In this document: one piece after another, positions 10,084-42,222 of the stretch
Layout: each line of letters starts with the position of its first letter
Numbering within the stretch: the stretch's first letter is position 1
DNA from: Paludisphaera borealis
GTDB taxonomy: Bacteria > Planctomycetota > Planctomycetia > Isosphaerales > Isosphaeraceae
Assembly: GCF_001956985.1 (NCBI RefSeq)
Contig: NZ_CP019082.1
Location: forward strand, 806,001 to 870,000
Direction: 5' to 3'
Length of the DNA stretch: 64,000 nucleotides
The notes under the pieces: generated by a model
Told to the model about the DNA's origin: nothing
The model's input: only the letters and a program-made list of their open reading frames with translations
The model's database searches: none
Position numbers and translations under genes: made by a program

Positions 10084-10119
10084 CGAAAATACAAACGGCC
10101 TGGACGTGGGTCCAGGCCG
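10084..10119 (-). terminator. Intrinsic terminator downstream of the PEP-CTERM gene
   Basis: Perfect 10-bp stem at 10096-10119 (CGGCCTGGAC, loop GTGG, GTCCAGGCCG). Read on the minus strand it is followed by a T-rich tract (TTTGTATTTT), the layout of a rho-independent terminator, about 97 bases beyond the PEP-CTERM stop codon. Confidence 0.7.
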
Positions 10120-10215
10120 AGAGGGTCGTCAGGGGATTTTCAGGGCCGTCGGCTGGAGCGAAACTCGGTCCGTCCGGCAACCCGCGCCGGGGGCAATCGT
10201 ATGAAGTAAACTTAA

Positions 10216-11069: not shown

Positions 11070-13139
11070 CTACGGGGCGTCCATGTCGAGGATTGTTCGG
11101 AGCCGGAGGCCGTTGTAGTGGACGGTGCGGACGGCGCCGTCGCGGTGGCGGCTCTTGGTCAGGCCGGGGATCGCGGCGTGGAGGTCGCGGCCGAGCGATT
11201 GCTCCTCTCCGACGGCGTCGCGACCGTGCTCGCGGCACCAGGTCCGCCACGCCTCGTAGAGCGCGCCCGACGAGATCGTCGCGCCGGGTTCGAGCATGCA
11301 ACGATCGTCGAGGAACGTCGCGATCGGGCTGGCCATCTCATCCATCGATTCCATCAGGTCGCGGGCCGAGTCGGGCTGCAGGAACCGGCCGCGGAGCCGG
11401 AGCCGTCGCCAGCCCTCGAACGCCCAGAGCAAGATCCCCGGTAGCTCTCCGTTGAGCCGCTGAAACAGCGTCACGTCCTCGCGGTCGTAGAACGAACGTG
11501 TGAACCGGAGGATGACCAGCCGGCTCGACAGCGCCCGGCTCGAATCCTTCAGCCTCGGTAGTTCGTTCGAGATGAGTACGAACCGCGTCGGCAGCCGCCC
11601 GGTCCACGAGGGCAGGTGCTTGCGGTCGATCGACTGATCGTCCTCGCCGCTGATCGACAGCAGCGATTCGACGATCGCCGCGTTGTCGGGCCGGCTTGAC
11701 AGCCGCGCGTCGGGGAAAATCGCCACCGGCTTGTCGATCAACACCGACAGGCCGAACGGCCGCGCCAGCGTCGAGAGCGTCGGATTGACGACGTTGTTCG
11801 GCCCCGCGAGCGCCTTCAGCACCCGGCCGATCGTCCCCCGGCCCGACCGCTTCGGACCGATCATCATGAGGATCTTCTGAAGCCTTGTGTCGGTCGTCAG
11901 CAAATAGCCGAACCACTCTTGCAGGCTGTCGATGCTCGCCGGATCGTCGGGCCAGATCTGTTCCAGCAGATCGAGCCAGGCGCGCGGGGTCGGCGCCCAG
12001 GGGTCGAAATCGTAGTCAAGTGCGTGCGCATTGAAATACCGGGGCGTCGGCGCCATCATGCACCGGGCCCCGGTCACGAACGAAGGCGGATGCACGAGTG
12101 CGTTCCGCGCCGGAATCAGCTCGTCGGCCGGCCATTCCGAGAGGTCGCACTCCGAGTCCACGAACGTCGCCGCCTCATCGCCGTCCGGCTCGGGCGGACG
12201 CCAGTTGGGATCGCGGGCGAGGGTCTCGGGAACCGCGTCGATCCACGACGGCTGCGACCCGCACTCGTCGCCGCGGACGAGGACCAGGCCCGTGAGCGCC
12301 TGGACGACGTCGCCCACCAGCCGGCTCGTAACCGGGATCGGCCCCGCCGGCCGCCGCCCTCGGCCTCGGTCGTCGGGCTCGGCTCTCGCCAGCTCCAGGT
12401 GATGAAGCCGCCGGAACTCGTCGGCCAGGCATTGCGAAAGCTGGGCGCGAAGCTCGGGTGCGGAAACGACGCGGTAGACGCCGTCATCCCATCTATGAAA
12501 TCGTTCCCGCCAGAACCGCAAGCCTACGCCTCCCGCATGGGCGAACCGCTGCAGCAAGAACACGACCGCCAACCGGTGCGGATTCGACTCTGATCCCTCA
12601 ATCGCAATTGCCGGAACCTCGCTTGCGGTCTCGCAATGCAGCGCTGGCGCGGGGGCCGGAGGCTCGGGCCGTCGAGCCGCGCGCGCCTCGCGACGAGGCG
12701 CGCGCCCGCGCTCCGCCAGGTATCCGCGCGGTCGTTCGTCGGGGGCCTTATCGGCGCTTTGGAGCTTGTGCTCAAGCTCGGCGGCGGACCAGGGCGGGAC
12801 GCACGACCGGTTCCAGTCTTCGAGCAGCGGCCGGGCCTGATCGATGCTGAGCCCGAACCCCTTGACGAGCACGCAGGCTGCATGGAACGCCCGACCGTGC
12901 CCCCCCTGCCCCGAGATCGCCGGCGGCAGCTTGGCCACATAAGACGATGCGCGGGTCGCGACCGGCGTCGGGCCGCTCGCGGGCCGTGAGTTCGGATGCG
13001 GCGAATCGGGGCGCGAGGCCGTCTCGCGTCCCCGCCTTCGGGCCAGCCATCGCGCCAGGTCGACGGCCCCGGCCGCCCCCGGTGCGGGATCGGCGGCGGA
13101 AGGGGGCCAGGGATGCGAGCCGTCTTGGTTCCTGATCAT
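11070..13139 (-). CDS. Phage replication helicase/primase, D5/P4-like C-terminal domain
   Basis: 689 residues. The N-terminal 200 residues contain a primase-C-terminal-like segment (GHGRAFHAACVLVKGFGL) and a basic linker. The C-terminal half is the P4/D5-type superfamily 3 helicase: FGYLLTTDTRLQKILMMIG leads into the Walker A loop starting at Gly428. The loop reads GPKRSGRGT, with Arg434 where the catalytic lysine is normally found. Later the TRFVLISNELPRL segment fits the sensor region. It would unwind DNA at the phage origin, and it sits directly downstream of the AEP-type primase gene, 60 bases apart, forming a replication pair. The Lys-to-Arg change may weaken ATP hydrolysis. It is the terminal gene of the element. 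Confidence 0.78.
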   Translation of the reverse strand: MIRNQDGSHPWPPSAADPAPGAAGAVDLARWLARRRGRETASRPDSPHPNSRPASGPTPVATRASSYVAKLPPAISGQGGHGRAFHAACVLVKGFGLSIDQARPLLEDWNRSCVPPWSAAELEHKLQSADKAPDERPRGYLAERGRAPRREARAARRPEPPAPAPALHCETASEVPAIAIEGSESNPHRLAVVFLLQRFAHAGGVGLRFWRERFHRWDDGVYRVVSAPELRAQLSQCLADEFRRLHHLELARAEPDDRGRGRRPAGPIPVTSRLVGDVVQALTGLVLVRGDECGSQPSWIDAVPETLARDPNWRPPEPDGDEAATFVDSECDLSEWPADELIPARNALVHPPSFVTGARCMMAPTPRYFNAHALDYDFDPWAPTPRAWLDLLEQIWPDDPASIDSLQEWFGYLLTTDTRLQKILMMIGPKRSGRGTIGRVLKALAGPNNVVNPTLSTLARPFGLSVLIDKPVAIFPDARLSSRPDNAAIVESLLSISGEDDQSIDRKHLPSWTGRLPTRFVLISNELPRLKDSSRALSSRLVILRFTRSFYDREDVTLFQRLNGELPGILLWAFEGWRRLRLRGRFLQPDSARDLMESMDEMASPIATFLDDRCMLEPGATISSGALYEAWRTWCREHGRDAVGEEQSLGRDLHAAIPGLTKSRHRDGAVRTVHYNGLRLRTILDMDAP

Positions 13140-13199
13140 GCAACGATCACTTTATTATCCGTCGTGGCGATCGGAGGGGTGATGAGCCGTGCGTCGTCT

Positions 13200-14022: not shown

Positions 14023-15096
14023 TCAGGCCGACGCCCGCCGTGCGACGGGCCGAGGGGACCGAGCCGCCGGGAGCAGGAACGTCGGCGCAGGTGATTCGAC
14101 GAGGGTTTCTTGCAGCTTGTCGAGGGCCTTGCGCTCGATCTGTTTCAGGCGGTAGACGGCCAGACCGCATTCGCGCTCAAGCTCGCGGTATGGGCGAGGT
14201 TCGTCGGCCAGATCGTTCGCCCGCTTGATCCGCTTCGCCTCGCGATCATCATCCCGGCGCGATGCGGGGCGAGAGCGGGATTGGGAGCGAGGGCGTCTGT
14301 CGGCCTTGACGTCTTCGGCGCGGTCGTCGAGCCGGAAGCGACGCTTGACGAGCCAGGCCTCGAACGGAGTGAGCTGGTTGAACGCGGCGTACAATCGTTC
14401 CATCTCCTCGGCGGTTTCCAGCGGCTTTTCGGGCGGCCGTTCCTCGGAGAGCAGGTCTTCCGACGCGCCGGCTTCTTCGGCGTCGAGCGTCGACGCGGAG
14501 TACGACGAGCAATCGGCCTGCGCGTTTCGCAGGAACCGGAGGCGTCGGGCCTCGATTCCCATCTGCTCGGCGACGTCCTCCATGGTCGGCTCGCTCTGGT
14601 CGCCGCCGGGGTTTGAACGACGACGGCTCACCATCTCGGCTTTCACGCGGTCGAACCGTTTGCGGAGGATCACCAGGTAGTACGGGAAGTGAATCATCGA
14701 TCCGCCGCCGGACGTGGCTCGCATGATGTAGTTGCGGATCCAGCACGCCGCGTAGGTTGAGAACCGCGTCCCGTGCGTCTCCGGGTCGAAGTCTTCCGTG
14801 GCCCGCATCAGGCCGAGGTTCCCTTCCTGGATCAGGTCGTCGAGCTCCATGCCGCGGACCTTGAACTGGCTGGCGATGTTCACGACCAGCCGCATGTTGG
14901 CCAGAGTCAACTCCTCGCGGGCGGCGCGGTCCCCGGTCTTGATCCGGGCGGCCAGGTCCAACTCGGCCTCGGCCGACAGCAACGGGACGGACTGGGCGAA
15001 GAAGGCCGATTCGTCGCGTTCGGCCTCCGGTCCGTCGGCCTCGCATCCGTCCTGATTTCGACCCACCCGTGAGAGATCATTGGATGTATAGATCAT
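14023..15096 (-). CDS. Phage-encoded sigma-70 family RNA polymerase sigma factor
   Basis: 357 residues. Region 2 is excellent: LANMRLVVNIASQFKVRG, then MELDDLIQEGNLGLMRA and the -10-binding stretch FSTYAACWIRNYIMRA, roughly residues 85-150. Region 3-like helices (TMEDVAEQMGIEARRL) follow, then an acidic and Arg/Ser-rich linker (about residues 260-295) and a region-4 helix-turn-helix (YRELERECGLAVYRLKQIERKAL). The arrangement resembles RpoD/RpoH-type factors rather than compact ECF sigmas. As a gene inside the prophage it could redirect host RNA polymerase to phage promoters. A terminal Ala/Pro/Arg tail has no known role. Weak ribosome site at the chosen ATG. Confidence 0.88.
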   Translation of the reverse strand: MIYTSNDLSRVGRNQDGCEADGPEAERDESAFFAQSVPLLSAEAELDLAARIKTGDRAAREELTLANMRLVVNIASQFKVRGMELDDLIQEGNLGLMRATEDFDPETHGTRFSTYAACWIRNYIMRATSGGGSMIHFPYYLVILRKRFDRVKAEMVSRRRSNPGGDQSEPTMEDVAEQMGIEARRLRFLRNAQADCSSYSASTLDAEEAGASEDLLSEERPPEKPLETAEEMERLYAAFNQLTPFEAWLVKRRFRLDDRAEDVKADRRPRSQSRSRPASRRDDDREAKRIKRANDLADEPRPYRELERECGLAVYRLKQIERKALDKLQETLVESPAPTFLLPAARSPRPVARRASA

Positions 15097-15187
15097 CGCA
15101 TCAGTCTCGCTTAATCAAGATGTACGCCGCGGCGACTCGCCGCGACGGCGAAGGTTCAGAGCGAAGCAGAGCAGAGCGGAGCGGTCG

Positions 15188-17788: not shown

Positions 17789-18571
17789 CTATGAGCGACG
17801 GGCGACGGCGAACAGTGATGTGCCGGAGCCGAGCGAGCCGCGGAGGGCGGACTTTTCTTCGAGGCGGAAGGCGAGCGACAGGAGCCACGACGCGGCCTTC
17901 GGCGGCAGAGTCAGGTGGCGTTGGTAGATCTGTGCGGGCGTTTCGCCCGGTCGGGACAGCGTGCGGGCTCGCTGGCGACGGAGCAACGGGACCAGCCAGC
18001 GGCCCCACCAGAACGTACGATCGAGGCGGAGGCCCGAGTCGTCGAACGCGGCGGCCAGCGTATCGGGAAGGTAGCGGCGGCGGTGGCCTTGAACCGCGTC
18101 GAACTCGGAGAACATCGCGGGCAAGGCGGGGACGCTCACAACCAGCGCGCCTCCCGGTTCGAGCAGCGCGCCGAGCCGTCGAACAGCCTCGCGATCGTCG
18201 TCGAGATGTTCGATCACGTCCAGGGCCAGTACGGCGTCATACCGTGGCGCGTCGGCCCGAAGCGGCTGCGTCAGGTCGGCTTCGATGAGTGTGCGGCCGG
18301 GGCGGTCGAGGTGTTCGAGCGTGCGCCGCGAGACGTCCATGCCGACGGCCCGGTAGCCCTGAGCTTCGAGGGCGTCGAGCGTCACTCCCCAGCCGCAGCC
18401 AGCGTCTAGCACGTGCGCGGGCGGCTCAATTCCCAGGTCGGAGAGGAGCCGGAGCGTCAACGCGGCGCGGGCGCGCCACCACGGATGGCGGCGGACCACG
18501 TCGCCGAGCTCGACGAGGATGTCCTCGGCCATGTTGTCGTCGGCGATTCCCTCCGACCAGTGCTCGATCAT
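17789..18571 (-). CDS. Class I SAM-dependent methyltransferase
   Basis: 260 residues. The SAM-binding motif I is VLDAGCGWGVTLDAL (about residues 53-67), acidic motif II is in VGMDVSRRTLEHLD, and motif IV is DAVLALDVIEHLDDD, typical of the UbiE/Methyltransf_11 group. The C-terminal region has a hydrophobic stretch (FWWGRWLVPLLRRQR), suggesting membrane contact. The gene overlaps the glycosyltransferase gene by four bases (ATGA), so the two form a coupled unit. Together they could modify a lipid-linked sugar or surface glycan, as in phage serotype-conversion modules. Substrate unknown. Confidence 0.85.
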   Translation of the reverse strand: MIEHWSEGIADDNMAEDILVELGDVVRRHPWWRARAALTLRLLSDLGIEPPAHVLDAGCGWGVTLDALEAQGYRAVGMDVSRRTLEHLDRPGRTLIEADLTQPLRADAPRYDAVLALDVIEHLDDDREAVRRLGALLEPGGALVVSVPALPAMFSEFDAVQGHRRRYLPDTLAAAFDDSGLRLDRTFWWGRWLVPLLRRQRARTLSRPGETPAQIYQRHLTLPPKAASWLLSLAFRLEEKSALRGSLGSGTSLFAVARRS

Positions 18572-19569
18572 CGCCGTTCGGCCCCTGGTTCGTCGTCGTC
18601 CTTCGGGCGTTCGGATCGAGGCCCGGAATAATCGCGGACGATGTACGACGGCCGGCCCTTGGTTTCGAGGAAGATGAGCCGGATGTACTCGCCGATGATC
18701 CCCAGGCTGAAAAGCTGGATCGAGCCCATGAACAGCACGGTGACGACCATGCTGGCCCAGCCTCGTGGCGCCTTCCCGTTGGTGATCGCGTCAGTGAAGA
18801 CCCAGACGAGCAGCGCGATGGCGATCGAGATCGTGATCATGCCAAGATACGTAACCAGCCGCAGCGGGTAGCCGCTGAAACTGATCAGGCCGTCGACGGC
18901 CAAAGCCATCAGCCCGCGCATCGAGTACTTGGGGTCGCCTTCCTCGCGGGCCGATCGGTCGTAGGCCAGGCCGACCTGGCGGAAGCCGACGAACGATCGC
19001 AGGCCGCGGACGAACCGCATCCGTTCGGGAAGGTGGCGGAGCACGTCGACGACCTTACGATCCATCAGGCAGAAATCGCCGCTGTCGAGCGGGATGTCGA
19101 GGTCGCTGATCGCGCTCAACAACCGGTAGAAGGCGTGGTAGCCGAGGCGCTTGACCCAGCCTTCCTTGCGGCCCCGGCGAACAGCGTAGACGACTTCGTA
19201 GCCCTCGCGCCATTTGTCGACGAACGCGGCGATCAGCTCGGGCGGATCTTGAAGGTCGCCGTCGATGACGACGACGGCCGCGCCGCGCGCGTGGTCGAGG
19301 CCGGCGGAGACGGCCGCCTGGTGTCCGAAGTTGCGGCTCAGTCGCAAGACGACGACGCGCGGGTCGCGGCGGCGGAGGTCGTCGATCAGGTCGGGCGTCG
19401 CGTCCCGGCTGCCGTCGTCGACCAAGAGCATCTCGTAATCGAGGCCGATCGCCGCCAGGGCGGCCGACGTCCGCCGGTACAGCTCATCAACGTTCTCATG
19501 CTCGTTGTAGAGCGGAGCGACCACGCTCAGGGTCGGTCGGGGGTCGGTCGGTCGAGGCGGATCGCACAT
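18568..19569 (-). CDS. GtrB/DPM1-like family 2 glycosyltransferase
   Basis: 333 residues. The GT2 catalytic half has LSVVAPLYNEHENVDEL, the metal-binding DDGSRDAT and the VIDGDLQDPPEL motif. The C-terminal part has two hydrophobic segments (TYLGMITISIAIALLVWVF and MVVTVLFMGSIQLFSLGII), then EYIRLIFLETKGRPSY, the hallmark of GtrB-type polyprenyl-phosphate glycosyltransferases. Such enzymes load a sugar onto a membrane polyprenyl phosphate; phages use GtrB with other gtr genes to change host surface glycans and block superinfection. The flippase GtrA is not seen here. Translationally coupled to the downstream methyltransferase. Confidence 0.88.
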   Translation of the reverse strand: MCDPPRPTDPRPTLSVVAPLYNEHENVDELYRRTSAALAAIGLDYEMLLVDDGSRDATPDLIDDLRRRDPRVVVLRLSRNFGHQAAVSAGLDHARGAAVVVIDGDLQDPPELIAAFVDKWREGYEVVYAVRRGRKEGWVKRLGYHAFYRLLSAISDLDIPLDSGDFCLMDRKVVDVLRHLPERMRFVRGLRSFVGFRQVGLAYDRSAREEGDPKYSMRGLMALAVDGLISFSGYPLRLVTYLGMITISIAIALLVWVFTDAITNGKAPRGWASMVVTVLFMGSIQLFSLGIIGEYIRLIFLETKGRPSYIVRDYSGPRSERPKDDDEPGAERR

Positions 19570-19696
19570 GGGGCGGGCGTCTGCGTCAGTCGGAGTCGGA
19601 ATCGGGAGCGTCGTTCACATGAACGCGGCGACGCCTCATCTTGGACGCTCCACCGCGACGCGGCAAGGGGAATCCCTTGCGTTTCAGCCCGGTCCG

Positions 19697-20837: not shown

Positions 20838-22967
20838 TCAGACGCGGGCGTCGGCCAGCTCGATGACGGTGGCCTGGCGGTCGGCGGTGAACTCCCACGT
20901 GAGGGCCGAGATCACGGGGTAGACGGGCGACTCGCCCTGATCGGCGCCGACGTTGGTCTGCAAGCCGACGTCGCGGCCGTTGATCCGGGCGACCCGGTCG
21001 CCGACGCGGTACGACGTGATCAGGCTGGGGACGGTGACACTGCCGGCCATCGGGGGCAGCTCGTGGGCCGACCGAAGCTGCTCGGCCCAGGCCAGGGCGC
21101 GCGGAGTGTCGTCACGCAGGGTCACGGGGATGGCGGCGGCGTTGAAGGCCGAATGGGCGGCGACGGTCTCCATGCCGAAGTGGTCACGTGCGTCGACGCG
21201 GCGGCGGCGGGTGAACTTGGTCGGCGAGGCGGGCCGCGCGTCGACGGCGGCGGGGAGCATCAGGTCGTCGTCGACGACCGTGGTGAGCCGTAGGAAGAAG
21301 CGGGTGTTGGGCGCCGAAGGATTCGCCTGGCTGGTGACGCCGCGAAGCGTTCGGCTGGGCTCTTGCGCGGTCAAGCCGGTGAAGTCGCCGATCGGCCACG
21401 CCTCGGGGTCTTCGACGACGACGAACACGCCGAGCCGGTCCTCCAGCAGCTCCCAGCCGCCGGAGATCGGCTGCCAGTCGCCGGTGCCGTCCCAGACCGC
21501 CGGCGCGGCGCCGTTGTAGTTCCGCGAGAGCGCGAGTTGCGCCCGCAACCGCCGGCCCTGGGCGTCGCGCGTGACCAGCGAGGTCGAGCCGGGCCGCAGC
21601 CGCTTGACGTACGTCGAGCCCCCTTCGTCGTCGTTAGGGAAGACGGGCGAGAGGTCGAGCGCGGCGTTCGACCACGACGCGGCGGCCGGGTTCCAGTGGC
21701 CGTCGCCCGCCTCGTCGGCGACGTAGTAGCGATACTTGCGCTGGGAGTCGCCGGCGGCTGCGGCAAGGTTGGCGCGGAGGAACTGAATGCGGTTGGTCGC
21801 CGTCTCGTCGCCGGCCGTGGGAATGAAGCCCGGCGCGAGCACGACCGAAAGCTCGACCCGCCTCTGGTTGGTCTCGACGGTCACGGCGTTGACGATCGGG
21901 CGGGTGTCGCGGTGAAGGTGCATGGCGGCGACGTTGCAGCGGGCGGGGTTCAGATCGTCGCCGGCGTCGGGCAGCAAAAGCTCGCGGATCAGGCCGGCGT
22001 CGTCGGCGTCCTTGCGGTAGATCTCAATCTCGTTGCGGGGCGCTCCGACTCCGTCCTCGCCGGTGACGAACCGGAGGCCGAAGCCCGCGTGGTCGAGCTG
22101 CGCGGCCAGCGCCTCGGGCCACGGGGTGTTGGTCGCGTCGAAGTCGCGGACGACGACATCGGCGGCCGAATAGCCCTTGGCGTCGCCCGCATTCATATCA
22201 ACGAACGCCGATCCATTGATCGGGGGTCGCGATTGAAGCAGGGCGTCGAGCCGCTCGAAATCGGGGTTGTTGACATAAGTCTGATCGTTATAAACGCTGA
22301 GGACGTAGCGGACGAACTTGCCGAGGGTCCAGAAGGTGCGCGGGTCGGGGACGCGGTCGATGTGCGGGTCGAGGAAGACCGGGTAGCTTGCCGAGGCGTC
22401 GCCCTGGTTGACGTCGGCGCCGTCGGGCGTGCAGTTGGGACGGCCGTCGGGGTTGAACCGCGAGGGGAGCTCGACGTCGACGACGTTGCCGTTCCGGGGA
22501 TCGTCGGCGTTGCGCTGGCGACGGCCGCCGATCGGGACGTCCCAGCAGCGGACCGCCGCGCCGAGGGCGAGGAAGCTGACGCGCTGCGAGCGCGAGGTGA
22601 GGTCGACCTGCGGCGACTGCGCAAACCCGTCGAAGAGGATTCGCTGGGCGCCTGACGGGCTGGTCACAAGGACGACCAGGCGGTCGTCGTTGCGGACGAC
22701 ATACGGGCCGGATGCGTCGATCGGCCAGAGACCGCCGAAGTCGGCCGGGGCCGGAGCGTCGGCGGTCGCGTCGTCGAGCACGTACGAGAACCGGGCCGCG
22801 GGGGGCTCGGGGCCTTCGCGGTACTGGATCTGGTCGCACCGCACGTTGGGCAGCGTCTGGTACTGGGCGTCGCCGGCCTGCGAGGCGTCGTACCGGCAAA
22901 CGCAGACGGCCGCCGCCGGACTCGACAGCGGCGCGTCGTACGGATCGAAATCAAAAGATCCAGCCAT
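20838..22967 (-). CDS. Putative tail hub/baseplate protein
   Basis: 709 residues from the ATG at 22967, chosen for the AAGGGGATC ribosome site; an in-frame start at 23000 is less likely. The sequence is beta-rich and soluble with no signal peptide. It opens with a cysteine-containing region (VCVCRYDASQ; NVRCDQIQYREG). The end has VPSLITSYRVGDRVARINGRD, then YPVISALTWEF. The length, and position after the tail tube, chaperone and fibre genes, fit a tail hub or baseplate protein comparable to gp27-type proteins. This is positional and architectural inference; I recognise no diagnostic motif. Confidence 0.5.
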   Translation of the reverse strand: MAGSFDFDPYDAPLSSPAAAVCVCRYDASQAGDAQYQTLPNVRCDQIQYREGPEPPAARFSYVLDDATADAPAPADFGGLWPIDASGPYVVRNDDRLVVLVTSPSGAQRILFDGFAQSPQVDLTSRSQRVSFLALGAAVRCWDVPIGGRRQRNADDPRNGNVVDVELPSRFNPDGRPNCTPDGADVNQGDASASYPVFLDPHIDRVPDPRTFWTLGKFVRYVLSVYNDQTYVNNPDFERLDALLQSRPPINGSAFVDMNAGDAKGYSAADVVVRDFDATNTPWPEALAAQLDHAGFGLRFVTGEDGVGAPRNEIEIYRKDADDAGLIRELLLPDAGDDLNPARCNVAAMHLHRDTRPIVNAVTVETNQRRVELSVVLAPGFIPTAGDETATNRIQFLRANLAAAAGDSQRKYRYYVADEAGDGHWNPAAASWSNAALDLSPVFPNDDEGGSTYVKRLRPGSTSLVTRDAQGRRLRAQLALSRNYNGAAPAVWDGTGDWQPISGGWELLEDRLGVFVVVEDPEAWPIGDFTGLTAQEPSRTLRGVTSQANPSAPNTRFFLRLTTVVDDDLMLPAAVDARPASPTKFTRRRRVDARDHFGMETVAAHSAFNAAAIPVTLRDDTPRALAWAEQLRSAHELPPMAGSVTVPSLITSYRVGDRVARINGRDVGLQTNVGADQGESPVYPVISALTWEFTADRQATVIELADARV

Positions 22968-23027
22968 GCCGATCCCCTTGGAGCGTGTCGTATTTCGCAA
23001 GACCGAGAACGCCAGCCGCGCCGGCGA

Positions 23028-24611: not shown

Positions 24612-24983
24612 TCACGTCAGGCCGTGGAACACGGCGCGGTAGGGCATCGCCCAGCCGCCGCCGCAAGGTTGTGGACCGCGCGAATCGGGGACGAATTCGC
24701 CCTTGAAAACGACGTTCGACCACGCTCGCCCGCGCGGGTCGATCAGCGTCCGGGCGACGCCGTCGGCGTAGAACGCGAACTGGGCCTCGGCGGCGTTCAG
24801 GCCGGCGAACGTCGGGGCGGTGAGCATTCCCCGGATGAAGAACGATCGGCCCCGGCCGCCGCCGTCGAGCACCTGCGTGCCGCTGACGCCGAAGAACGCG
24901 TTGACCTGCTGCGCCCGGGGGTGGACGACGTGCTGAAACTGCACCGCCGATCCGAAAATATTGACGCCGTTGTATGTCATCAT
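24612..24983 (-). CDS. Small phage tail protein
   Basis: 123 residues. No known family recognised with confidence. The sequence contains RGMLTAPTFAGLNAAEAQFA and GRAWSNVVFKGEFVPD, resembling small phage tail or DNA-circularisation-type proteins. Lies between the FN3-like protein and the gene next to the tail chaperone. Confidence 0.5.
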   Translation of the reverse strand: MMTYNGVNIFGSAVQFQHVVHPRAQQVNAFFGVSGTQVLDGGGRGRSFFIRGMLTAPTFAGLNAAEAQFAFYADGVARTLIDPRGRAWSNVVFKGEFVPDSRGPQPCGGGWAMPYRAVFHGLT

Positions 24984-25004
24984 TGATGTGAATCCTCTTG
25001 ACGG

Positions 25005-25853
25005 TCAAGCGTCGATGCGGCCCCGGAACCCGCGTGGACGCGAGCCGAGCGGGGAAGGCCCCGGAGCCGACAGCGCCGCGACGGTCTCTTCCAGCTTCGC
25101 GACGGCCTGCGACAGCCGGCCCTCGATCCGCTCGAGCGCCTCGGAGCCGGCTGACGACCGGTCGTCGCCCCGCGCCCAGTCGTCGAGCGAGCCGGACCCC
25201 GACGGACCAGCGTTGAGTCCGTCTGGTCTGAACCGCGACACGGCCGCCGCCCGGTTCGACCAGGACGAATCCGCCGACCAGGGGGCGAACCGATCCGCCG
25301 AGCCGCCGTCATCGACGGCCGGGGTGGCGAGAGGAACGGCCGAGAGCAGGGCCGAAGGATCTGCGAGCAGGCCGTCGGCGAGCGGGTTCGCGGCCAGGGC
25401 CGAGAGGACGTCGCCCCCCCCGCCCTCGTCGATCCCGGCCGTGACCAGCGAGGCAAGCGACGCGCCCGGATCGGCGTCGTTCGGGAACACGACGTCGGGC
25501 GGCGCGATGAGCGAGGAGTCGTCGCCGCCGAGGCTGTCCACGACGGCCGGGGGGGCGGCTGTCTGCGGCGGGAAGCTCGTGAGGATCGGCAGATCGGCCG
25601 CCCGGATCGCTTCGCTCGGGACGAAGTTCGGCGTGGTTGATGTGAGTGCGGCGACCGTCGGAAGTTGGTGCGGCGCGGGAGCGGGTTGTACCGCGGCTTC
25701 GGATTCCGGAGCCGCCGGTTCGGCCGGGATCGGCGGGACGGCCAGGAAGTCGTCCAGGCCGGCGACGGACGGAAACGCGGCGGCCGGTGAAGCGGCGATC
25801 AGGAAGGGATCGAGCGGCCTGGACGATGCGGATGGATTTTCATGCAAGTTCAT
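25005..25853 (-). CDS. Ala/Pro/Ser-rich protein in the tape-measure position
   Basis: 282 residues. Preceded by AGGAGGTAG, and begins only 43 bases beyond the end of the chaperone frameshift extension, where tailed phages encode the tape measure. However it is far too short for a tape measure of a flexible tail (those are 600-1500 residues) and most of it is low-complexity Ala/Pro/Asp. Only the C-terminus, LERIEGRLSQAVAKLEETVA, is a clear coiled coil, as in tape measures. It could be a very short tape measure (short-tailed virion), a deletion remnant, or an unrelated protein. Confidence 0.55.
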   Translation of the reverse strand: MNLHENPSASSRPLDPFLIAASPAAAFPSVAGLDDFLAVPPIPAEPAAPESEAAVQPAPAPHQLPTVAALTSTTPNFVPSEAIRAADLPILTSFPPQTAAPPAVVDSLGGDDSSLIAPPDVVFPNDADPGASLASLVTAGIDEGGGGDVLSALAANPLADGLLADPSALLSAVPLATPAVDDGGSADRFAPWSADSSWSNRAAAVSRFRPDGLNAGPSGSGSLDDWARGDDRSSAGSEALERIEGRLSQAVAKLEETVAALSAPGPSPLGSRPRGFRGRIDA

Positions 25854-25896: not shown

Positions 25897-26462
25897 TCAA
25901 AACAGCGACTCGCGGGCTGCGTCCTGGGCGCGGAGGTCGAGGTTGTCGATCCACCGCGAGGGGGGGACGGCGCGGCCGAGGGCGACGAGCATTTCGGAAA
26001 CGCCGATGGCGTCCTCCCAGGGAAGGTCCTGGTTCACTCCGTTGGCGATCAACGTGCAGCGGAGCCATCGGCTGAAGGTTTTGGGGAGCGGCCGGTCAAC
26101 ACCAAGTTGATCTTCGCCCAGCGGTCGCGGCAGTCTGGGTCTTCGGCGTCGACGACCAGCAGGCGGCGGAGGTCGCGGTCGGTCAGATCGTAGTTGCGGA
26201 GGAGTAGCGCTGCGGTCATGCGGAACTGGACGGCCAGACGGCCGGCGTGGTCGTCGGGGTCGCAGTCGGTCAACTCGTCGATCAGGTCTTCGAACTCGAC
26301 GCCGAAGCTGGGCCCGCCGCCGACGCCTATGCGGCCGTCGCCGTCGCGCGTCGGATAGAGCCGCAGCCAGGGGCGCGGAAGGGTCCAGATCTGGCCGTCG
26401 CCGAGGGCGACCTTGGGGCCGTCGGAAAAGTCGGGCCGGCGCGTCGAGGCTTCGTCAGGCAT
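25897..26462 (-). CDS. Tail assembly chaperone fusion (GT-like) made by -1 frameshifting
   Basis: The zero frame (26462 down to 26049) encodes a 137-residue protein. At codons TCC-CCA-AAA the sequence is C CCA AAA (26085-26079), a canonical X XXY YYZ slippery heptamer. Shifting by -1 there joins 128 residues to a second open frame of 60 residues (ending LDLRAQDAARESLF) that stops at 25897-25899, giving a 188-residue fusion. The second frame has strong coding character (C/G third positions, WEDAIGVSEMLVALG) and no start codon before its middle. In tailed phages the gene between the tail tube and the tape measure makes G and GT by the same -1 slippage, and the position here matches exactly. Confidence 0.82.
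26049..26462 (-). CDS. Tail assembly chaperone, zero-frame product (G-like)
   Basis: 137 residues, the unshifted product. It has an acidic middle (DLIDELTDCDPDDHAGRLAV) and a helical end (YDLTDRDLRRLLVVDAED). The last ten residues, after the slippery site, are not protein-like (PSADGSAAR), as expected for a zero-frame tail read past a frameshift site. The start overlaps the end of the preceding 104-residue gene by eight bases. In lambda, G and GT bind the tape measure and tail tube during assembly. Confidence 0.75.
   Translation of the reverse strand: MPDEASTRRPDFSDGPKVALGDGQIWTLPRPWLRLYPTRDGDGRIGVGGGPSFGVEFEDLIDELTDCDPDDHAGRLAVQFRMTAALLLRNYDLTDRDLRRLLVVDAEDPDCRDRWAKINLVLTGRSPKPSADGSAAR
26079..26085 (-). 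promoter_or_regulatory. Programmed -1 ribosomal frameshift site
   Basis: Minus-strand heptamer CCCAAAA read as C-CCA-AAA in the zero frame, which re-pairs as CCC-AAA after a one-base slip. The following -1 frame is open for 61 codons including the stop. A downstream stimulatory structure was not assessed. Confidence 0.8.
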
Positions 26463-26769
26463 CGTGGGCTCCCGCGACGAGGAGGCCCCGCTCCGATCCG
26501 TCGGGGCGGGACGTCCACTGGTAGCGCGTCTGGCCTTCCCGGGGGTGGCCGACGGGGAACAAGAGGGTGTCGCGCGGGTCGGCGGTGACGAACAGCCGTC
26601 CGCCGGGCTGGCGGCGGATGTACGCCCGCTCCCCGCGCGACCGGTCCACGCCCAGGAGCGGCTCGGCCGAGCGGAGGATCGAGTCGATCCGGTCGAGTTG
26701 GGTTTCGCCGCTCTTGAGCGACTCGGGCAGGATCAAGGCGTCGAACGTGTGATCCATCGTCGTATTCAC
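26455..26769 (-). CDS. Small hypothetical tail protein
   Basis: 104 residues. No family recognised; contains a helical stretch (RIDSILRSAEPLLGVDRSRG) and a terminal beta-like region (YQWTSRPDGSERGLLVAG). Lies between the major tail protein and the chaperone, overlapping the chaperone start by eight bases, so it is in the tail operon. It may be a minor tail or chaperone-associated protein. Confidence 0.5.
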   Translation of the reverse strand: MNTTMDHTFDALILPESLKSGETQLDRIDSILRSAEPLLGVDRSRGERAYIRRQPGGRLFVTADPRDTLLFPVGHPREGQTRYQWTSRPDGSERGLLVAGAHDA

Positions 26770-26818: not shown

Positions 26819-27235
26819 TCAGGCCCGGGTGAAGCTCAATGGGTTGGTCGTGCCGTCGGTCGAGAACGCCAGCAGACTGAGCGTGGCCGAGCCGAACTGG
26901 CCGTGGGCTCCGCTGGTCTCGGCGTTCTCGGCCACCGCGTTGGCCAGGACGTAAAGGATGTCGCCGCCGGTCTCGCCCTTGGCGTCCTTGTGGGTCGCGC
27001 TGAACGAGGCCGTGGTGCCCGGCGCGACGGCCATCAGCGCGGCGGTGTCGGCGCTGGTGACGGCGGCCCGGGGCTTGTTCATCAGGTTGACGACGACGGT
27101 GGGGAAGTGGTCGCCGTCGGCGGAATAGGCCGCCAGCGAGCCCCCCTGGGTGAAGCTCACCTGGGAGACGCGTGAGATCGGCGTCGACCCGAACGACACG
27201 GCCGTCCAGTTCGCCTGGAGCTTGGTTGCAGCCAT
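26819..27235 (-). CDS. Putative major tail (tube) protein
   Basis: 138 residues. Excellent ribosome site (AAGGAG) before the ATG. The composition (small residues, Thr/Ser/Ala-rich, few charges) and an SFGSTPISRVSQVSFTQG segment fit a compact beta-sandwich tail-tube protein. Position fits: after the tail terminator and before the chaperone. The tube protein is normally the most abundant tail component. Family assignment is by position and composition, not by motif. Confidence 0.6.
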   Translation of the reverse strand: MAATKLQANWTAVSFGSTPISRVSQVSFTQGGSLAAYSADGDHFPTVVVNLMNKPRAAVTSADTAALMAVAPGTTASFSATHKDAKGETGGDILYVLANAVAENAETSGAHGQFGSATLSLLAFSTDGTTNPLSFTRA

Positions 27236-36700: not shown

Positions 36701-37843
36701 TCAGGTCGCGGAGAAGGCGGTGATGCCCGAGACCCACGCGTGGTGCGCCTCGTTGTCGATCTCGATGGCGCCTTCCATGATGATGTCGCCCTCGAAGGCG
36801 TCGCCGCGCGAGCCGCGGGGCTTGTCGATCATCGACCGCTTGAGCCGGACGCGGGCCTCGTGAGCCGACAGGCAGATCGCGGTGCCCGGCCGCAGCAGCG
36901 GGGCGGGGATGATCGAAATGCCCGAAAGGAACGGCGCCTCGAACAGGTCGATCGGCACGCCGAACACATTCGACCCGGCGTTGATCCGCATGGCCGCGTG
37001 GCCCCACACGGCGAACGCGCTGAGGAAGTCGGTGCTGACGACCAGCAGGCTGGGGTTGCCGCCGCCGTTGAAGCAAGCCTGAAGCGTGTCGCGGATGAGG
37101 TCGCTGGGCTTGTAGGCCGCGGCGTTCGTCGGGGCGGTCGTGTTGTTGGTCGCCAGAATGCTCTGCACGCCCTTCATCAGCGGCCGGCTGGAGGCGGAGG
37201 TCAAGCCGACCCCCTTGCCGTAGTAACAGGCGCTCTCGAAGTCGTCCATCACATGCTGGACGGCCAGCATCCGGTCGCGGTCGAGCGGCGTAGCGTAGGC
37301 GCTGCCGTAGTTCGAGTCAGCCTGCAACGCACCGCCGACCTGGTAGGCGTGCTGCACGGTCTGGCAGTACTGGGTGGTCGCCTGGGGAATCCGGCTGACG
37401 CTGGCGATGTTCGTCTCGGAGCCCGTCCGCGAGTTGCTGATCAGGTAGACTGAAAGCAAGTCGTTGTGGGCGGCGGCCGTGGTGCCGGCGTAGCCGCGAG
37501 TCAGCGTCACCGTGTTCGTGGCGCTGCTGACGGCCGTGATCAGCAGATACTCCTGCTCGATCTGGACGACGTCGCCGGTGTCGAAGATCGATGCGTCGGC
37601 GACGATCGCCGTGGTCGCCGCGGCGGTGAGGGGGCCGCCGTTGGCCAGGGCGATCGATCGCGGCCGGTAGTTGTCGTTAGTGATCAAGAACTGCGGAGCG
37701 CCGGTGGGCAGCTTCGGCAGCCGCGAGACCAGCGGGTTGCGGTTCACGAACCAGTTGATCGCCACGCCGAACACGTCGTTCGGAAGGACCCCGGCGTTGA
37801 AGGCGGAGAACTGCGACAAGGGGCCGTTTTCGTAGGAAGGCAT
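36701..37843 (-). CDS. Major capsid protein, SU10-like
   Basis: 380 residues from the ATG at 37843. N-terminal FSAFNAGVLPNDVFGVAINW leads to a hinge and a small inserted domain at about residues 68-136 that ends VTLTRGYAGTTAAAHN, characteristic of SU10-type capsid proteins (DUF5309 family). The following 240 residues fit the HK97 fold: RMLAVQHVMDDFESACYYGK (spine helix region), then LLVVSTDFLSAFAVWG and a C-terminal domain with DIIMEGAIEIDNEAHHAWVS. It follows the scaffold-like gene as usual. High confidence for capsid, moderate for the exact family. Confidence 0.82.
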   Translation of the reverse strand: MPSYENGPLSQFSAFNAGVLPNDVFGVAINWFVNRNPLVSRLPKLPTGAPQFLITNDNYRPRSIALANGGPLTAAATTAIVADASIFDTGDVVQIEQEYLLITAVSSATNTVTLTRGYAGTTAAAHNDLLSVYLISNSRTGSETNIASVSRIPQATTQYCQTVQHAYQVGGALQADSNYGSAYATPLDRDRMLAVQHVMDDFESACYYGKGVGLTSASSRPLMKGVQSILATNNTTAPTNAAAYKPSDLIRDTLQACFNGGGNPSLLVVSTDFLSAFAVWGHAAMRINAGSNVFGVPIDLFEAPFLSGISIIPAPLLRPGTAICLSAHEARVRLKRSMIDKPRGSRGDAFEGDIIMEGAIEIDNEAHHAWVSGITAFSAT

Positions 37844-37940
37844 GGAAGCATGCTCCGGTCGGTGAGGAAGTGATGCGGGAGGCGGCGGTCGCGGCACATC
37901 GCGACAGGGGCCGCACGACGGGGGGGCTCGGGTGTTGCGA

Positions 37941-38612
37941 TCAGCTCAGCGGGTGCAGGCCGAACGACTGGTACTGGTTCTGGCGATCCCTGAACTGACT
38001 GGCGATGGACTCCAGCGAGCCCGGCTGGACCGAGTGCGGCAGGGCGGGCGCGCGGGTGCCGTCGCTGCCGGAACCTCCTCGCGAGGACGGAGCGAAGAAG
38101 ATCGCGAACTGCGCCGAATCGAGCCGCTCCCGGATCGCCTCGGCCGCCGGGCGACCGCTGACCTTGTCGCGGACCAGAAGCGCGCCCGAGGCGTCGCGGA
38201 CCGTCTCGAACTCGTCCTGAAGCAGTCGGCGGACCATCGCGGCGGCGGCCGTCTTCTGCTCGGGCGAGTCGCCGACGAACGACCGGCCGTGGAACGCCTC
38301 GGCGATCGCCGCCGTCTTCCGCTCCTCGTAAACCTGCCGCTCCAGGCTGGAATACCGCGACAGCGCCTCGGCGTGCTTCTGCTCCCACGCCTGCCGCTGC
38401 TGGCTCAGGGCCTCTTCGATCTGCCCCTTCTCCGCCAGGGCCCGCAGCCGCTCGGACTCCTTCTGCTCCAGCGTCGCCTCCTGCAACCGCTGGTATTCCT
38501 TCAACTGACTCTCCAAGGTCCGCAGCCGCTGCTGCTCCTCGGCCGTCAGCGCCGCCGGGCCCGGGGCCGTCGGGGGACTCGTGTTCGGATGGCCGTCGAT
38601 TGGGTCGTTCAC
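37941..38612 (-). CDS. Scaffolding-like coiled-coil protein
   Basis: 223 residues from a GTG at 38612 with GAGGATC upstream. A long charged coiled coil runs from residue 23 to about 100 (EEQQRLRTLESQLKEYQRLQ), followed by a mixed domain and a Ser/Gly-rich C-terminal segment. The architecture and the place just before the capsid gene match phage scaffolding proteins, which template capsid assembly and then leave. Confidence 0.68.
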   Translation of the reverse strand: MNDPIDGHPNTSPPTAPGPAALTAEEQQRLRTLESQLKEYQRLQEATLEQKESERLRALAEKGQIEEALSQQRQAWEQKHAEALSRYSSLERQVYEERKTAAIAEAFHGRSFVGDSPEQKTAAAAMVRRLLQDEFETVRDASGALLVRDKVSGRPAAEAIRERLDSAQFAIFFAPSSRGGSGSDGTRAPALPHSVQPGSLESIASQFRDRQNQYQSFGLHPLS

Positions 38613-38686
38613 GGATGATCCTCACTCAAGGACATGTCGATAGCTCTTGCTCGGGACGATGCCCGTCGCGCGAGCCGGCCTCATCC

Positions 38687-40318
38687 TTACTCGTTCGATT
38701 CGACTTCGAGGTAGGCGTCGATCTCGGCGTCGAACCGGGTGTAATCCTGATCGTCCAGACCGGGGAGCATCAGCCGGATCAGCCGGCTCAGCAGCTCACT
38801 CTCGGTCTCGGGGGCGTTGCCGGCCGCGGCGAGGATCGCCTGGAACTGGCCGACGGTCCGGGCCAGCTCCTCGCCGGTCGACAGGTCGAACGCGGTGGGA
38901 TACTGCACGCGGACGGCCTCGCGGTCATCGGTCGAAACCGCGCCGTCGCCGAGGACCGTCAGGACCAGCTCGGCGAGCTGCTTCTCGGCGTGGCCGAGCA
39001 CCGCGGCGATCTTGCTCAGCAGGTCGTTGCCCGCCGCCTGGTCGATTCGCTTCGACACGCCGCTCTGGCCGACCGTCGATCCCCCCGTTCCCGAAGCGCC
39101 GGCGGGCTTTGTCAGCAAGGCGGCGCGGTCGGCGGCGTCGCGGAGGTCGGCCTTGTTCAAGCGGATCGACTCGGCCCCGTCCTTCGGGAACGGCACCACG
39201 TCGAACCCCTCGTACGTCGCCGCGCCGCCGTGTGTATTCTTCTTCTTGGGCAGGAGCCAGTTGGGACCGATCGGCACCGTGCCGTCGGCCTTGACGAAGT
39301 CTTCCGGACCTTGCAGCAGCGGGTGCGCCTGCGTCGTGTCGGACAGGATCAACTCGCTGTCCCGGTTGTAATACTCGCGTTGAATTTCGGCGATGCTTTC
39401 ATATCTGGGCACGCCGATATTGCGGCAACGCGGCCGGCGGCGGTCGAAGACGCGGACGATCGGCACGCGGCCGTAACTGTGGGCGATCGGGCCCTTGACG
39501 ACCTCGCCCGAGCCGTCGTAAAGCGTCCACGACGACTCGTCCCAGAACCGCCAGAGGGCCGATCCGTCGTCGGTGACTTCACGGACGAGGCACTCGACGT
39601 AGCGGCCGAGGCGGTCGAGCCGCCACCACACCATGTTTTCGGGGAGGATGTACGAGGCGACGCAACCGTCGAGCCCCAACCGGATCTCGTCGGCCCGCGT
39701 GCGGATCTCCTCGCCGTCGGGCGTCGCCGGGTGGTCGACGATCAGGTCGAGCTGACCGAGGACCAGCAGCAACGGCGCGATCGAGCTGGCCATCCACTGG
39801 TCGATCGATGTGCCCCGGCCGTCGACGTCGCGCCACCAGGCGACCAGCTTCGACGGGCCCTCGCGCTTGACCTCGCGGCTGTAAATCCGGGCGAGGTGCG
39901 TCTCGGCGGCCTCGGCGACGAACGTCGGCACAGGCGTGCGCGCCCGCCGCAGCTCGTAGTCGTCGTCGGTCGCCTGGTTTGCCTGGTCGGACCCCGCCGG
40001 CCGTCCCGTCTGGGGCGAATAACCGGGGTCGAACGACGACGGATACTCGCGCTTGTGCCGCACGAGATTCCGCACCGGCATGCCGTGCATGTCGTAACCG
40101 TAAACGGCCGTGCGGTACGCCTCGCCCCCCTCCCACGAATCGAGCAGCCATCGCCACCGAAGCTGGTGCGAAAGCCACTCGGGGTGAGGATGGTCGAGCC
40201 GGCGGCCGTCCGGCAGCGCGATCCGCGGCATGCCCGCCGCCGGCGACGAAGGAACCAACGCGCCTGTCGTGGTCGAAAATGGCATGGTAGTCTTCGTGCT
40301 CGATGAGGAAGGAATCAT
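38687..40318 (-). CDS. Portal protein
   Basis: 543 residues from the ATG at 40318; an ATG 11 codons later (40285) is an alternative. The sequence is rich in Trp/Arg motifs early (HPEWLSHQLRWRWLLDSWEG), has a central wing-like region (EYYNRDSELILSDTTQAHPLL) and a helical C-terminus (LLSKIAAVLGHAEKQLAELV), as in portal proteins of the SPP1 gp6 type. It lies between the terminase and scaffold genes, the invariant portal position. Portals form the dodecameric DNA entry pore. Family inferred by architecture and position. Confidence 0.75.
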   Translation of the reverse strand: MIPSSSSTKTTMPFSTTTGALVPSSPAAGMPRIALPDGRRLDHPHPEWLSHQLRWRWLLDSWEGGEAYRTAVYGYDMHGMPVRNLVRHKREYPSSFDPGYSPQTGRPAGSDQANQATDDDYELRRARTPVPTFVAEAAETHLARIYSREVKREGPSKLVAWWRDVDGRGTSIDQWMASSIAPLLLVLGQLDLIVDHPATPDGEEIRTRADEIRLGLDGCVASYILPENMVWWRLDRLGRYVECLVREVTDDGSALWRFWDESSWTLYDGSGEVVKGPIAHSYGRVPIVRVFDRRRPRCRNIGVPRYESIAEIQREYYNRDSELILSDTTQAHPLLQGPEDFVKADGTVPIGPNWLLPKKKNTHGGAATYEGFDVVPFPKDGAESIRLNKADLRDAADRAALLTKPAGASGTGGSTVGQSGVSKRIDQAAGNDLLSKIAAVLGHAEKQLAELVLTVLGDGAVSTDDREAVRVQYPTAFDLSTGEELARTVGQFQAILAAAGNAPETESELLSRLIRLMLPGLDDQDYTRFDAEIDAYLEVESNE

Positions 40319-40334
40319 GTCGTGATACGGACGC

Positions 40335-41912
40335 TCAGAACACCCGCCCCGCCTTGGCGCGGCGGAGGGGTTCGGCGGGGCTGGCGCCATCGGGCAAGGC
40401 GACGCGGAGGCCGCCGCGGAGGGCGTCGATCAGGTCTTCCTGCGGGTGTTGCGGGTCGGCGGGATAGTCCATCCACTGGCCCGCGCGTCGAGCCCGGGCG
40501 TAGCTGAGGAAGGCGCTGGCGAGGTGCTTGCAACGTGGGTGGATCTTGAGGCGGACCGTGCCGTCGGCCGATCGCACCAGGCTCTCGATCAGGACCAGGC
40601 CCTCGGTCACGCATCCGGGATACTTCGGCCACTGCTGGATGCCCGTCTCGCCGACGAGGCCGCATCGCTGGTATTCGGAGATGACCGTGGGGCCGACCGG
40701 GTTGCGGGCGCCGCCGGCCGAGTCGGTCGAGACGTACCGCGTGGCGATCCCGCACATCTGATCGGCCAGAGCACGCAGGGCCAGGGCGCAGGCCTCGGCC
40801 GTTCGCCCCTCGGCCAGGAACTCGGCGAACACGTTCACCCGCAGCGGTTCGCGAACCGTCGCCCATTGCGAGCCCGGGTTCACCTGGAAGAACACGGCGC
40901 CCGTGAAAACGCCGCTGTCGACCGCGATATGAACCGGCAACGCCGGGTCGAACTCGGCCGCCTCGCACACGTTGTCGGCCAGGTCGAACTGAGTGAACCA
41001 GACGCCCTCGGCCTGCGGGCCGCGACACAGGTAGTCGCTGGCGAAGACCCGGGCCGACACCCCCTTGACCTTCTGGATCAAGGTTTCAATACCATAGTGA
41101 CCGTTGCTGCGTTTCGCCTTCGGCCGAAGCTTCGGGTCGAGGTGGCGGTCTTCATGGCACCAGGCCATCAACGGGCATTCGGGGCATTTTTCCAGCTTCC
41201 GGCCGCTCCGCGACGTCGGGCAACGCTCAAGGACTTCAAAGACGCAGTACGTGTGCACGGGAAACGCACCGGAGCGTCCTTGTTCGACCAATTCGGCCAT
41301 AGGGCCGGTCAGCTTGTGCCAGGTCGAGGTCATGAGGACGCTCGCCTTAACGCCGCGCAGGTCCATCGCCATGCCGAGCGCCGCTTCGCGGATGTCGGTG
41401 GCGATCTCGTCGACCTCGTCGAGCTTCAAGCTGGCGACGTGCGGGCCGCGGACGCTCGTGGGGCTGGCGGCGAGAATCGAGACCCGCGAGCCGTTGGTGT
41501 AAAGCGCCTCGGTTTTCAGCAGGCGGTCGAGCGTGTCGTCGTCGCCGCCGTAAACCCCCCTGCCCTCGATCACGAGCGCCTTGAGCGCCCGGTAGATCTG
41601 TTCGGACTGAGCCTTCGAGCCCCCCAGGATGTGGGTCTCGTGCCGGGGGTTGAACCGGCTGTTCAGGTGGGTGTCGAGGGCCGAGAGGAACGACTTGCCG
41701 CTGCCGCGCGGTCCGTGCCAGAGCGCCAGCGAGGGGCGGTCGAGCACCTGGCGGGCGAACATGTCGAATGGGGACGAGTGCCCCTGACAGACGGCCCGCG
41801 ACGGGATGCGGATGCCGGTGAACCCGCGAACCCAGTCGCTTAATTCGCCTCGCCCTTGGGGGCGTCGGCCGCGGACGGCATTAAGCAACGGAGCGATCCT
41901 TGACAGGTCCAC
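40335..41912 (-). CDS. terL: Terminase large subunit
   Basis: 525 residues from a GTG at 41912, chosen because GGAGGCC lies just upstream. The ATPase has Walker A GPRGSGKS (residues 67-74) and Walker B SLKLDEVDEI (Asp165, Glu166). The nuclease half shows VHIAVDSG and YVSTDSAGG strands with acidic residues. Between them is a cysteine-rich insertion (RCPTSRSGRKLEKCPECPLM, then CHEDRH) that could bind zinc. This motor packages DNA into the prohead and cuts concatemers. Its start overlaps the end of the small subunit gene by 32 bases and its stop precedes the portal by 16 bases. Confidence 0.9.
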   Translation of the reverse strand: MDLSRIAPLLNAVRGRRPQGRGELSDWVRGFTGIRIPSRAVCQGHSSPFDMFARQVLDRPSLALWHGPRGSGKSFLSALDTHLNSRFNPRHETHILGGSKAQSEQIYRALKALVIEGRGVYGGDDDTLDRLLKTEALYTNGSRVSILAASPTSVRGPHVASLKLDEVDEIATDIREAALGMAMDLRGVKASVLMTSTWHKLTGPMAELVEQGRSGAFPVHTYCVFEVLERCPTSRSGRKLEKCPECPLMAWCHEDRHLDPKLRPKAKRSNGHYGIETLIQKVKGVSARVFASDYLCRGPQAEGVWFTQFDLADNVCEAAEFDPALPVHIAVDSGVFTGAVFFQVNPGSQWATVREPLRVNVFAEFLAEGRTAEACALALRALADQMCGIATRYVSTDSAGGARNPVGPTVISEYQRCGLVGETGIQQWPKYPGCVTEGLVLIESLVRSADGTVRLKIHPRCKHLASAFLSYARARRAGQWMDYPADPQHPQEDLIDALRGGLRVALPDGASPAEPLRRAKAGRVF

Positions 41913-42222
41913 GAACGGCCTCCAGTACCTTGCGGGCGGTCGCGTCGTCGATGGAAAACGTCTCGACGGCTCGATGCGATGCCGGCGGCCCGCCGATTCG
42001 TCGGAACACCTCGTGCTGCGACCGGACGTCGCCGCGGACGGCCCCGGCCACGAGCGAGGAGAGGATGCGCTCGGCCCACGATCGACCCGGGTCGTCGCTC
42101 GACCGGATCACGAACGCGCGGAGCCGGTCGTCGAGACCGACCTGGGCGTCGGAGCCGAGGCCGTCGTCGAGGGGCGCCGGCTCGGCGTCGCCGGTCGGCG
42201 GCTTGCGAGTGGAATGGCCCAT
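41881..42222 (-). CDS. Putative terminase small subunit
   Basis: 113 residues from the ATG at 42222. A disordered acidic N-terminus (TGDAEPAPLDDGLGSD) precedes a helical domain (LSSLVAGAVRGDVRSQHEVF) and a C-terminal helix (IDDATARKVLEAVRGP). Size, helical content and 32-base overlap with the large subunit match small terminases, which recognise packaging sites. No diagnostic motif, so this rests on position. Confidence 0.6.
   Translation of the reverse strand: MGHSTRKPPTGDAEPAPLDDGLGSDAQVGLDDRLRAFVIRSSDDPGRSWAERILSSLVAGAVRGDVRSQHEVFRRIGGPPASHRAVETFSIDDATARKVLEAVRGPVKDRSVA

Follow-up and report, generated by a model that had tools for sequence, protein, structure and literature searches.

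The window, a stretch of 64,000 nucleotides from Paludisphaera borealis (contig NZ_CP019082.1, positions 806,001 to 870,000), holds a short gene that very probably yields two forms of a tail assembly chaperone by programmed −1 ribosomal frameshifting, and does so within what appears to be a domesticated cluster of head and tail genes, passed on vertically in Paludisphaera and its sister genus. We infer the occurrence and efficiency of frameshifting, the binding partners of the products and the particle from the genes, which are arranged as follows.

26049 to 26462, minus strand: zero-frame open reading frame of the G-like product (ATG at 26462, TGA ending at 26049; 137 aa)
26085 to 26079, minus strand: slippery heptamer C_CCA_AAA (CCCAAAA), at the same junction in relatives
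25897 to 26079, minus strand: T-like −1 frame extension (60 codons and a TGA; fusion of 188 aa)

According to the proposed mechanism, the majority of ribosomes would end at 26049 and release the 137-residue G-like chaperone, and a minority would slip one base back on the heptamer, both tRNAs re-pairing, on CCC and AAA, to produce the 188-residue G–T fusion. By analogy with lambda, G would coat the tape-measure protein, T would recruit the tail-tube protein, and the ratio of G to G–T would set tail assembly.

The heptamer precedes the zero-frame stop by 34 nt, and the −1 frame is open over 60 codons (26079–25900) up to a TGA ending at 25897. In the window, the 25 −1-frame codons preceding the slip contain no ATG, GTG or TTG, and the first −1-frame ATG past the slip is codon 31, in the middle of the T part. 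All of this agrees with the initial annotation, which had proposed the zero-frame heptamer, the coordinates and lengths of both products and the lack of a −1-frame start before the middle of the extension; the assignment to the minus strand is new. The two overlapping frames have a common N-terminal part and a −1 extension, the arrangement that characterizes lambda-type G/GT genes. Based on the codon use of 22 conserved same-strand stretches (8,504 codons, chaperone gene excluded), an in-frame C_CCA_AAA would be expected 0.00024 times by chance in the chaperone gene. In these stretches CCA accounts for 15 of 556 proline codons and AAA for 17 of 176 lysine codons, and the in-phase heptamer does not occur in them at all.

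A search of 148 relatives returned chaperone matches in 24 genomes, the window's own counted, which were resolved into 34 distinct homologous places. Exactly C_CCA_AAA is found at the same junction in 18 of the 34 (window counted), down to about 30% protein identity, and in these places the −1 frame reaches 40–70 codons beyond the zero-frame stop. Three further places (L016, L036 and L038) carry the junction CGG TCT TTT CGC (TCT_TTT_C), where a −1 slip on T_TTT would connect the same two parts. In all, 21 places from 16 genomes share this −1 offset, with T residues conserved. G and T form one continuous open reading frame in six places, and the G-like part alone was found in seven. The absence of conservation in relatives, which the initial annotation had named as an outcome that would speak against it, was not observed; besides the 18 places, the heptamer is present on an environmental viral contig (L112).

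Querying a collection of named genomes and a set of viral contigs with the single protein gave no match in either, and querying them with an alignment gave 11 and two loci, respectively. Ten of the 11 are contigs already found and provide names for them; the carriers include Aquisphaera insulae, Paludisphaera soli and the Singulisphaera acidiphila plasmid pSINAC02. The eleventh, from Tautonia (L111), matches over residues 1–31 only and was left out of the junction classes. The second viral contig (L113) has the T_TTT junction. In a sample of the phylum, two of 392 genomes matched, the window's own included, and the family therefore appears to be confined to Isosphaeraceae and environmental contigs.

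The expectation that automatic annotation would miss the second frame was half right, as the pSINAC02 record does annotate both frames, each as a hypothetical protein of its own. There, the frameshifted chaperone (L114, 22009–22568) shares a 39-kb plasmid with genes for ParA/ParB, a P4-type primase and a sigma factor; another frameshifted chaperone (L060, G001:C9) is on a contig of 15.5 kb that has a weak match to a primase. Neither in L114 nor in L060 did the other tail genes of the window have a match. Around one of the seven places with a G-like protein and no T (L079, G000:C1:1748265–1748567; the others are L073–L078), several open reading frames are also kept in L074, L075, L077 and L078, which suggests that this neighbourhood is another conserved gene cluster, possibly phage-derived.

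The position of the frame change is mirrored by constraint. Among the window and six close relatives (58–70% identical to the window in G), zero-frame third positions are 0.57–0.76 conserved up to about base 345, 0.81–0.89 in the segments before and over the slip and 0.90–0.99 from the slip to about base 510, a rise of the kind that a one-base shift of the coding frame should produce. T homology starts directly after the slip (alignment A1). Folding of the downstream RNA, which had been suggested as a check, was less uniform: in 70 nt starting 4 nt past the heptamer (100 shuffles per locus) the window has a weak z of −1.8, and 12 of the 21 loci have a z of −2 or lower. The RNAalifold consensus of 11 loci comprises three pairs, the register varies between subgroups and none is common to them, and a stimulatory hairpin is accordingly not claimed.

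The G part up to the slip was modelled by AlphaFold2 with a pLDDT of 90.8 as strands followed by helices. Among predicted viral structures (BFVD) it has a full-length fold match to A0A6J5LCU1 of an uncultured Caudovirales phage (E 3.1e-9, TM 0.77, 26% identity), whose name “tail assembly chaperone” is a database annotation of what is itself a predicted model; the second-best match has an E-value of 0.11. A PDB Foldseek search with the G model gave no match below E 0.001. The HK97 chaperone (2ob9), although ranking second of 996 chains with VIA-align, shows a weak overall fold likeness over 78 of 107 residues (Z only 2.9, 4.0 Å, 9% identity), is tied with unrelated chains and is not a demonstrated relative. 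At the sequence level, the best PDB match to the chaperone has an E-value of 0.8, Pfam and PHROGs gave no useful E-value for the chaperone alone or for a 13-member alignment, and among the 13 members Pfam gave no meaningful match and one member reached E 0.007 to a PHROG family annotated as unknown. In 50,697 INPHARED phage records, no homologue of the chaperone (tblastn) or of the tube protein was found, and the capsid protein had weak matches in four. The match among predicted structures supports a tail assembly chaperone fold for G. Together, the conservation of the heptamer and of the −1 frame and the fold match to an annotated chaperone strongly support a G/GT-type frameshift, as had been proposed for this gene. 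The predicted system is of the lambda G/GT type, and its protein family is without a match in Pfam or in the 50,697 phage records.

The two overlapping frames could also be explained without ribosomal slippage. They might reflect an error of sequencing, or a frameshift that recently inactivated a gene with a single ORF, and six relatives do have an uninterrupted frame across both parts; however, an erroneous or decaying gene would keep neither the offset, which persists with conserved T residues in the 21 places, nor the heptamer, which persists in 18 of them, and conservation thus refutes this explanation and leaves it a negligible probability. Alternatively, T might be a separate protein made by internal initiation or stop–start coupling, with no G–T fusion at all. 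In favour of this, the pSINAC02 record gives T as a gene of its own, and 14 of the 21 loci have at least one −1-frame ATG, GTG or TTG among the 25 codons before the slip. These starts do not lie at one common place, though, and the remaining seven loci, including the window, have none between the last −1 stop (or over 25 codons) and the slip. A separate T would also explain neither the conserved heptamer nor the natural G–T fusions, and we regard it as very unlikely. Transcriptional slippage on the A run, which needs a homopolymer and would likewise give two products including the fusion, is extremely unlikely: the run consists of only four A, and known transcriptional slippage requires longer ones. 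The conserved unit is instead the phased heptamer CCCAAAA, which fits dual-tRNA slippage.

Programmed −1 frameshifting at the heptamer is not the only arrangement within the family. In a protein tree, the T_TTT loci group together (support 99) as the sister of a heptamer locus (support 94), and a single replacement of the heptamer by T_TTT is therefore probable. All six continuous loci also fall into one clade (support 100), and a midpoint root sets it against all others. We considered an ancestral frameshift that was later lost in the continuous clade, but midpoint rooting gives no direction.

In four loci with a continuous GT gene (L067, L068, L069 and L072), this gene is directly followed by a G-only paralogue without T, whose profile match stops at position 108–129 of 190 (E 7e-6 to 3e-11), and the G copy is followed by an open reading frame of 279–412 aa at the tape-measure position. 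As each of the four has a GT gene and a G-only paralogue, two genes would supply both forms without a slip. No G-only copy is detectable beside the continuous GT genes of L070, L071 and L122. Behind the GT gene of L070 there is too little space for a tape-measure gene, and L070 is the only continuous locus without one near the chaperone. L071 has a tape-measure-like open reading frame of 650 aa directly upstream of GT (E 7.6e-5 to its counterpart in L062), and L122 has an open reading frame of 697 aa at the same place. On the reverse strand of L071, the tape-measure-like frame occupies 7656–9605 and the continuous GT gene 9425–10168, and the order of GT, a small open reading frame and the tube protein is unlike that of other loci. 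We considered whether, among continuous loci, the G copy and the tape-measure gene are gained and lost as a pair, and dropped this idea, as the open reading frames of L071 and L122 contradict it. With GT, no detectable G copy and a long open reading frame upstream of GT, these two loci speak against a simple lambda logic; in L071, G may be dispensable or made in another way.

The chaperone gene belongs to a cluster of head and tail genes flanked by host genes, for which the following features were delineated.

8368 to 10125, minus strand: M32 carboxypeptidase, host flank (PF02074), near the cluster in two genera
14023 to 15111, minus strand: sigma-70 type factor at the tail end of the cluster (PF04542, E 8.9e-16)
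20838 to 23027 (stop to stop), minus strand: hub-like tail protein of about 720 aa, named from size and position, in 15 of 20 related loci
24612 to 25004 (stop to stop), minus strand: conserved tail gene with matches in 14 of 20 related loci
25005 to 25853, minus strand: gene at the tape-measure position, 282 aa, Ala/Pro rich, with a putative function taken from its position
26455 to 26769, minus strand: conserved small gene directly upstream of the chaperone gene, with matches in 14 of 20 related loci
26819 to 27235, minus strand: putative major tail (tube) protein of 138 aa, so named from position and conservation, in 17 of 20 related loci
36701 to 37945 (stop to stop), minus strand: major capsid protein of SU10 type (PF17236, E 9.5e-41)
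37941 to 38621 (stop to stop), minus strand: head scaffolding protein (phrog_206, E 3e-10)
38687 to 40429 (stop to stop), minus strand: portal protein (phrog_145, E 3.7e-36)
40335 to 42107 (stop to stop), minus strand: large terminase (phrog_2, E 7.7e-11)
55714 to 62415, plus strand: double-length UvrA, host flank (PF17760, PF17755)

The head genes (terminase, portal, scaffold and capsid) lie upstream of the chaperone gene, and the tail genes lie around and downstream of it. The initial annotation had placed the chaperone gene between the major tail protein and the tape measure: this gene order is kept across loci, but both neighbours are named by position, and the small gene at 26455–26769 intervenes before the tube gene. 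The tube protein of the window is without a PHROG match (one of 10 aligned members reaches E 0.16), and its model is unusable (pLDDT 35.6). An open reading frame of at least 215 aa lies behind the chaperone in all 17 intervals, those of the window and 16 loci. In the inherited cluster (window and six genomes), the gene at the tape-measure position has 215–352 aa from stop to stop and is Ala/Pro rich, and in the phage-like loci L105, L106, L107, L112 and L062 it has 532–777 aa. The shorter gene, assigned by position, is consistent with a short tail.

Several genes accompany the structural ones. The sigma-70 type factor, 32–52% identical between the window and seven genomes, evolves faster than the structural genes and is possibly a dedicated regulator. 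A D5-like primase gene sits between the cluster and M32 (window 11070–13148). It is present by the cluster in four of eight genomes (G000, G002, G003 and G005), has no match in the searched stretches of G001, G004, G028 and G037, and is possibly the remnant of a replication module. A pair of glycosyltransferase and methyltransferase genes is found at the tail end of the cluster in the window (17789–19614) and soon behind the chaperone in L051 (10739–12251). Across the family, a capsid match at E 0.001 or better is present in 33 of 44 genomes. In loci L123–L130 (G017, G013 and G042; G016 and G010), terminase, portal and capsid are about 46–63% identical. Downstream of the head-gene homologues of G013, G017 and G042, at least 19 kb contain no related tail genes, and in G010 and G016 the available downstream sequence is too short to judge. 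Other Isosphaeraceae genera therefore seem to pair this head module with different tails.

From terminase to tail, the cluster has M32, UvrA or both as neighbours in all six sampled Paludisphaera and in two of three sister-genus genomes. It is collinear in G001, G002, G004, G005, G028 and G037; the G003 assembly has it in two pieces on different contigs and yielded no close copy of the chaperone. The third sister-genus genome (G011; 600 contigs, 92% complete) gave neither a capsid nor a chaperone match. UvrA has about 2,230 aa, with matching open frames of 2,160–2,672 aa in 10 of 10 relatives searched, and its N-terminal part lies 13–18 kb from the capsid gene in all six Paludisphaera genomes. 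M32 adjoins the other cluster end in six of eight genomes and has no match in a whole-genome search of G001 and G004.

Compared to the window, the dN/dS ratios are 0.13–0.48 for eight cluster genes, 0.28–0.63 for the sigma factor and 0.15–0.33 for the host UvrA, ratios that are rough because the synonymous differences are large (pS 0.32–0.65). Judged from these substitutions, the cluster genes are under purifying selection. Trees of the head genes and of UvrA agree, at a support of at least 95, on G028 with G037, on G002 with G003 and on the five other Paludisphaera; they differ at nodes with supports of 33–86, and neither data set rejects the tree of the other (AU p 0.063 and 0.297). In the six genomes tested (G000, G001, G002, G004, G005 and G028), there is no match to the integrase and recombinase families PF00589 and PF00239 within the cluster. 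From the fixed locus, the purifying selection, the unrejected trees and the lack of an integrase match we judge the cluster to be vertically inherited: most likely, it is inherited with the chromosome and kept by selection.

The term “prophage” in the initial annotation is in this respect misleading, and it is unlikely that the cluster is an ordinary prophage that can still move and merely occupies one shared attachment site, although several observations would suit this. The primase lies beside the cluster in half of the eight genomes, and UvrA in the window is reversed relative to the cluster, unlike in the five other Paludisphaera. L112 and G005:C15 carry related copies in which the gene at the tape-measure position is longer, and G005:C15 has a PF00239 (serine) recombinase about 2.3 kb from its terminase. 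When added to the head tree, G005:C15 joins on a long branch (0.88), with the window's genome on one side and the other Paludisphaera on the other (support 97), and, as this placement is inside Paludisphaera, the head tree is not rooted between genera. A mobile prophage is opposed not only by the missing integrase matches but also by an M32 or UvrA neighbour that is constant in eight genomes of two genera, by a divergence similar to that of host genes and by head and UvrA trees that do not reject each other.

With vertical inheritance preferred, the cluster looks like an ancient domesticated, possibly gene-transfer-agent-like locus. Gene transfer agents (GTAs) are generally inherited vertically, evolve under purifying selection and have no integrase. 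Likewise, the cluster appears to be vertically inherited at a conserved locus (eight of nine sampled genomes), to be under purifying selection and to have no integration module. It resembles GTAs of the RcGTA type as a vertically inherited head-and-tail cluster in which no integrase was found. It differs from them in its SU10-type capsid protein, in tail genes so far found in Isosphaeraceae and environmental contigs, in the adjoining sigma factor and in the primase of four genomes. A Zavarzinella prophage TerL has been placed near RcGTA-like TerLs (PMC7947584). A tailocin was rejected, as the conservation of the terminase, portal and capsid genes equals that of the tail genes in strength. We hypothesize that the likeliest function of the cluster would be a tailed, DNA-packaging, GTA-like particle. 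More specifically, and tentatively, Paludisphaera and its sister genus may have a new, independently evolved GTA with SU10-type head genes, an Isosphaeraceae tail module, a shortened tape measure and tail assembly using programmed frameshifting, with related elements that have a fused gene and a separate G copy.

In lambda, G coats the tape measure and a minority G–T fusion brings the tube protein (PMC5009743, which cites the survey by Xu, Hendrix and Duda 2004). The Paludisphaera gene shares with lambda G/GT the short gene upstream of the tape-measure position, an X_XXY_YYZ heptamer late in G at which a −1 slip leads into T in the −1 frame, and the expectation of both a fusion and a short form. 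It differs from lambda G/GT in that sequence searches gave no match to phage tail chaperones already known, its heptamer is C_CCA_AAA with T_TTT or a continuous gene plus G copy in related loci, and its carrier is a chromosomally inherited cluster. Among the matches listed for CCCAAAA and frameshift in the literature, none concerns a phage tail by title, and a search combining tail assembly chaperone, frameshift and gene duplication gave no match.

Planctomycetota are a phylum with few known phages. The findings extend G/GT recoding to this phylum and to a protein family absent from Pfam. They also reveal a natural series in which most loci have C_CCA_AAA, the loci of one clade have T_TTT and those of another have continuous GT genes, accompanied in four of seven loci by a separate G copy (none was detectable in L070, L071 and L122), a series that permits direct tests of the need for two chaperone forms. 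Finally, the cluster is a concrete GTA candidate in Planctomycetota.
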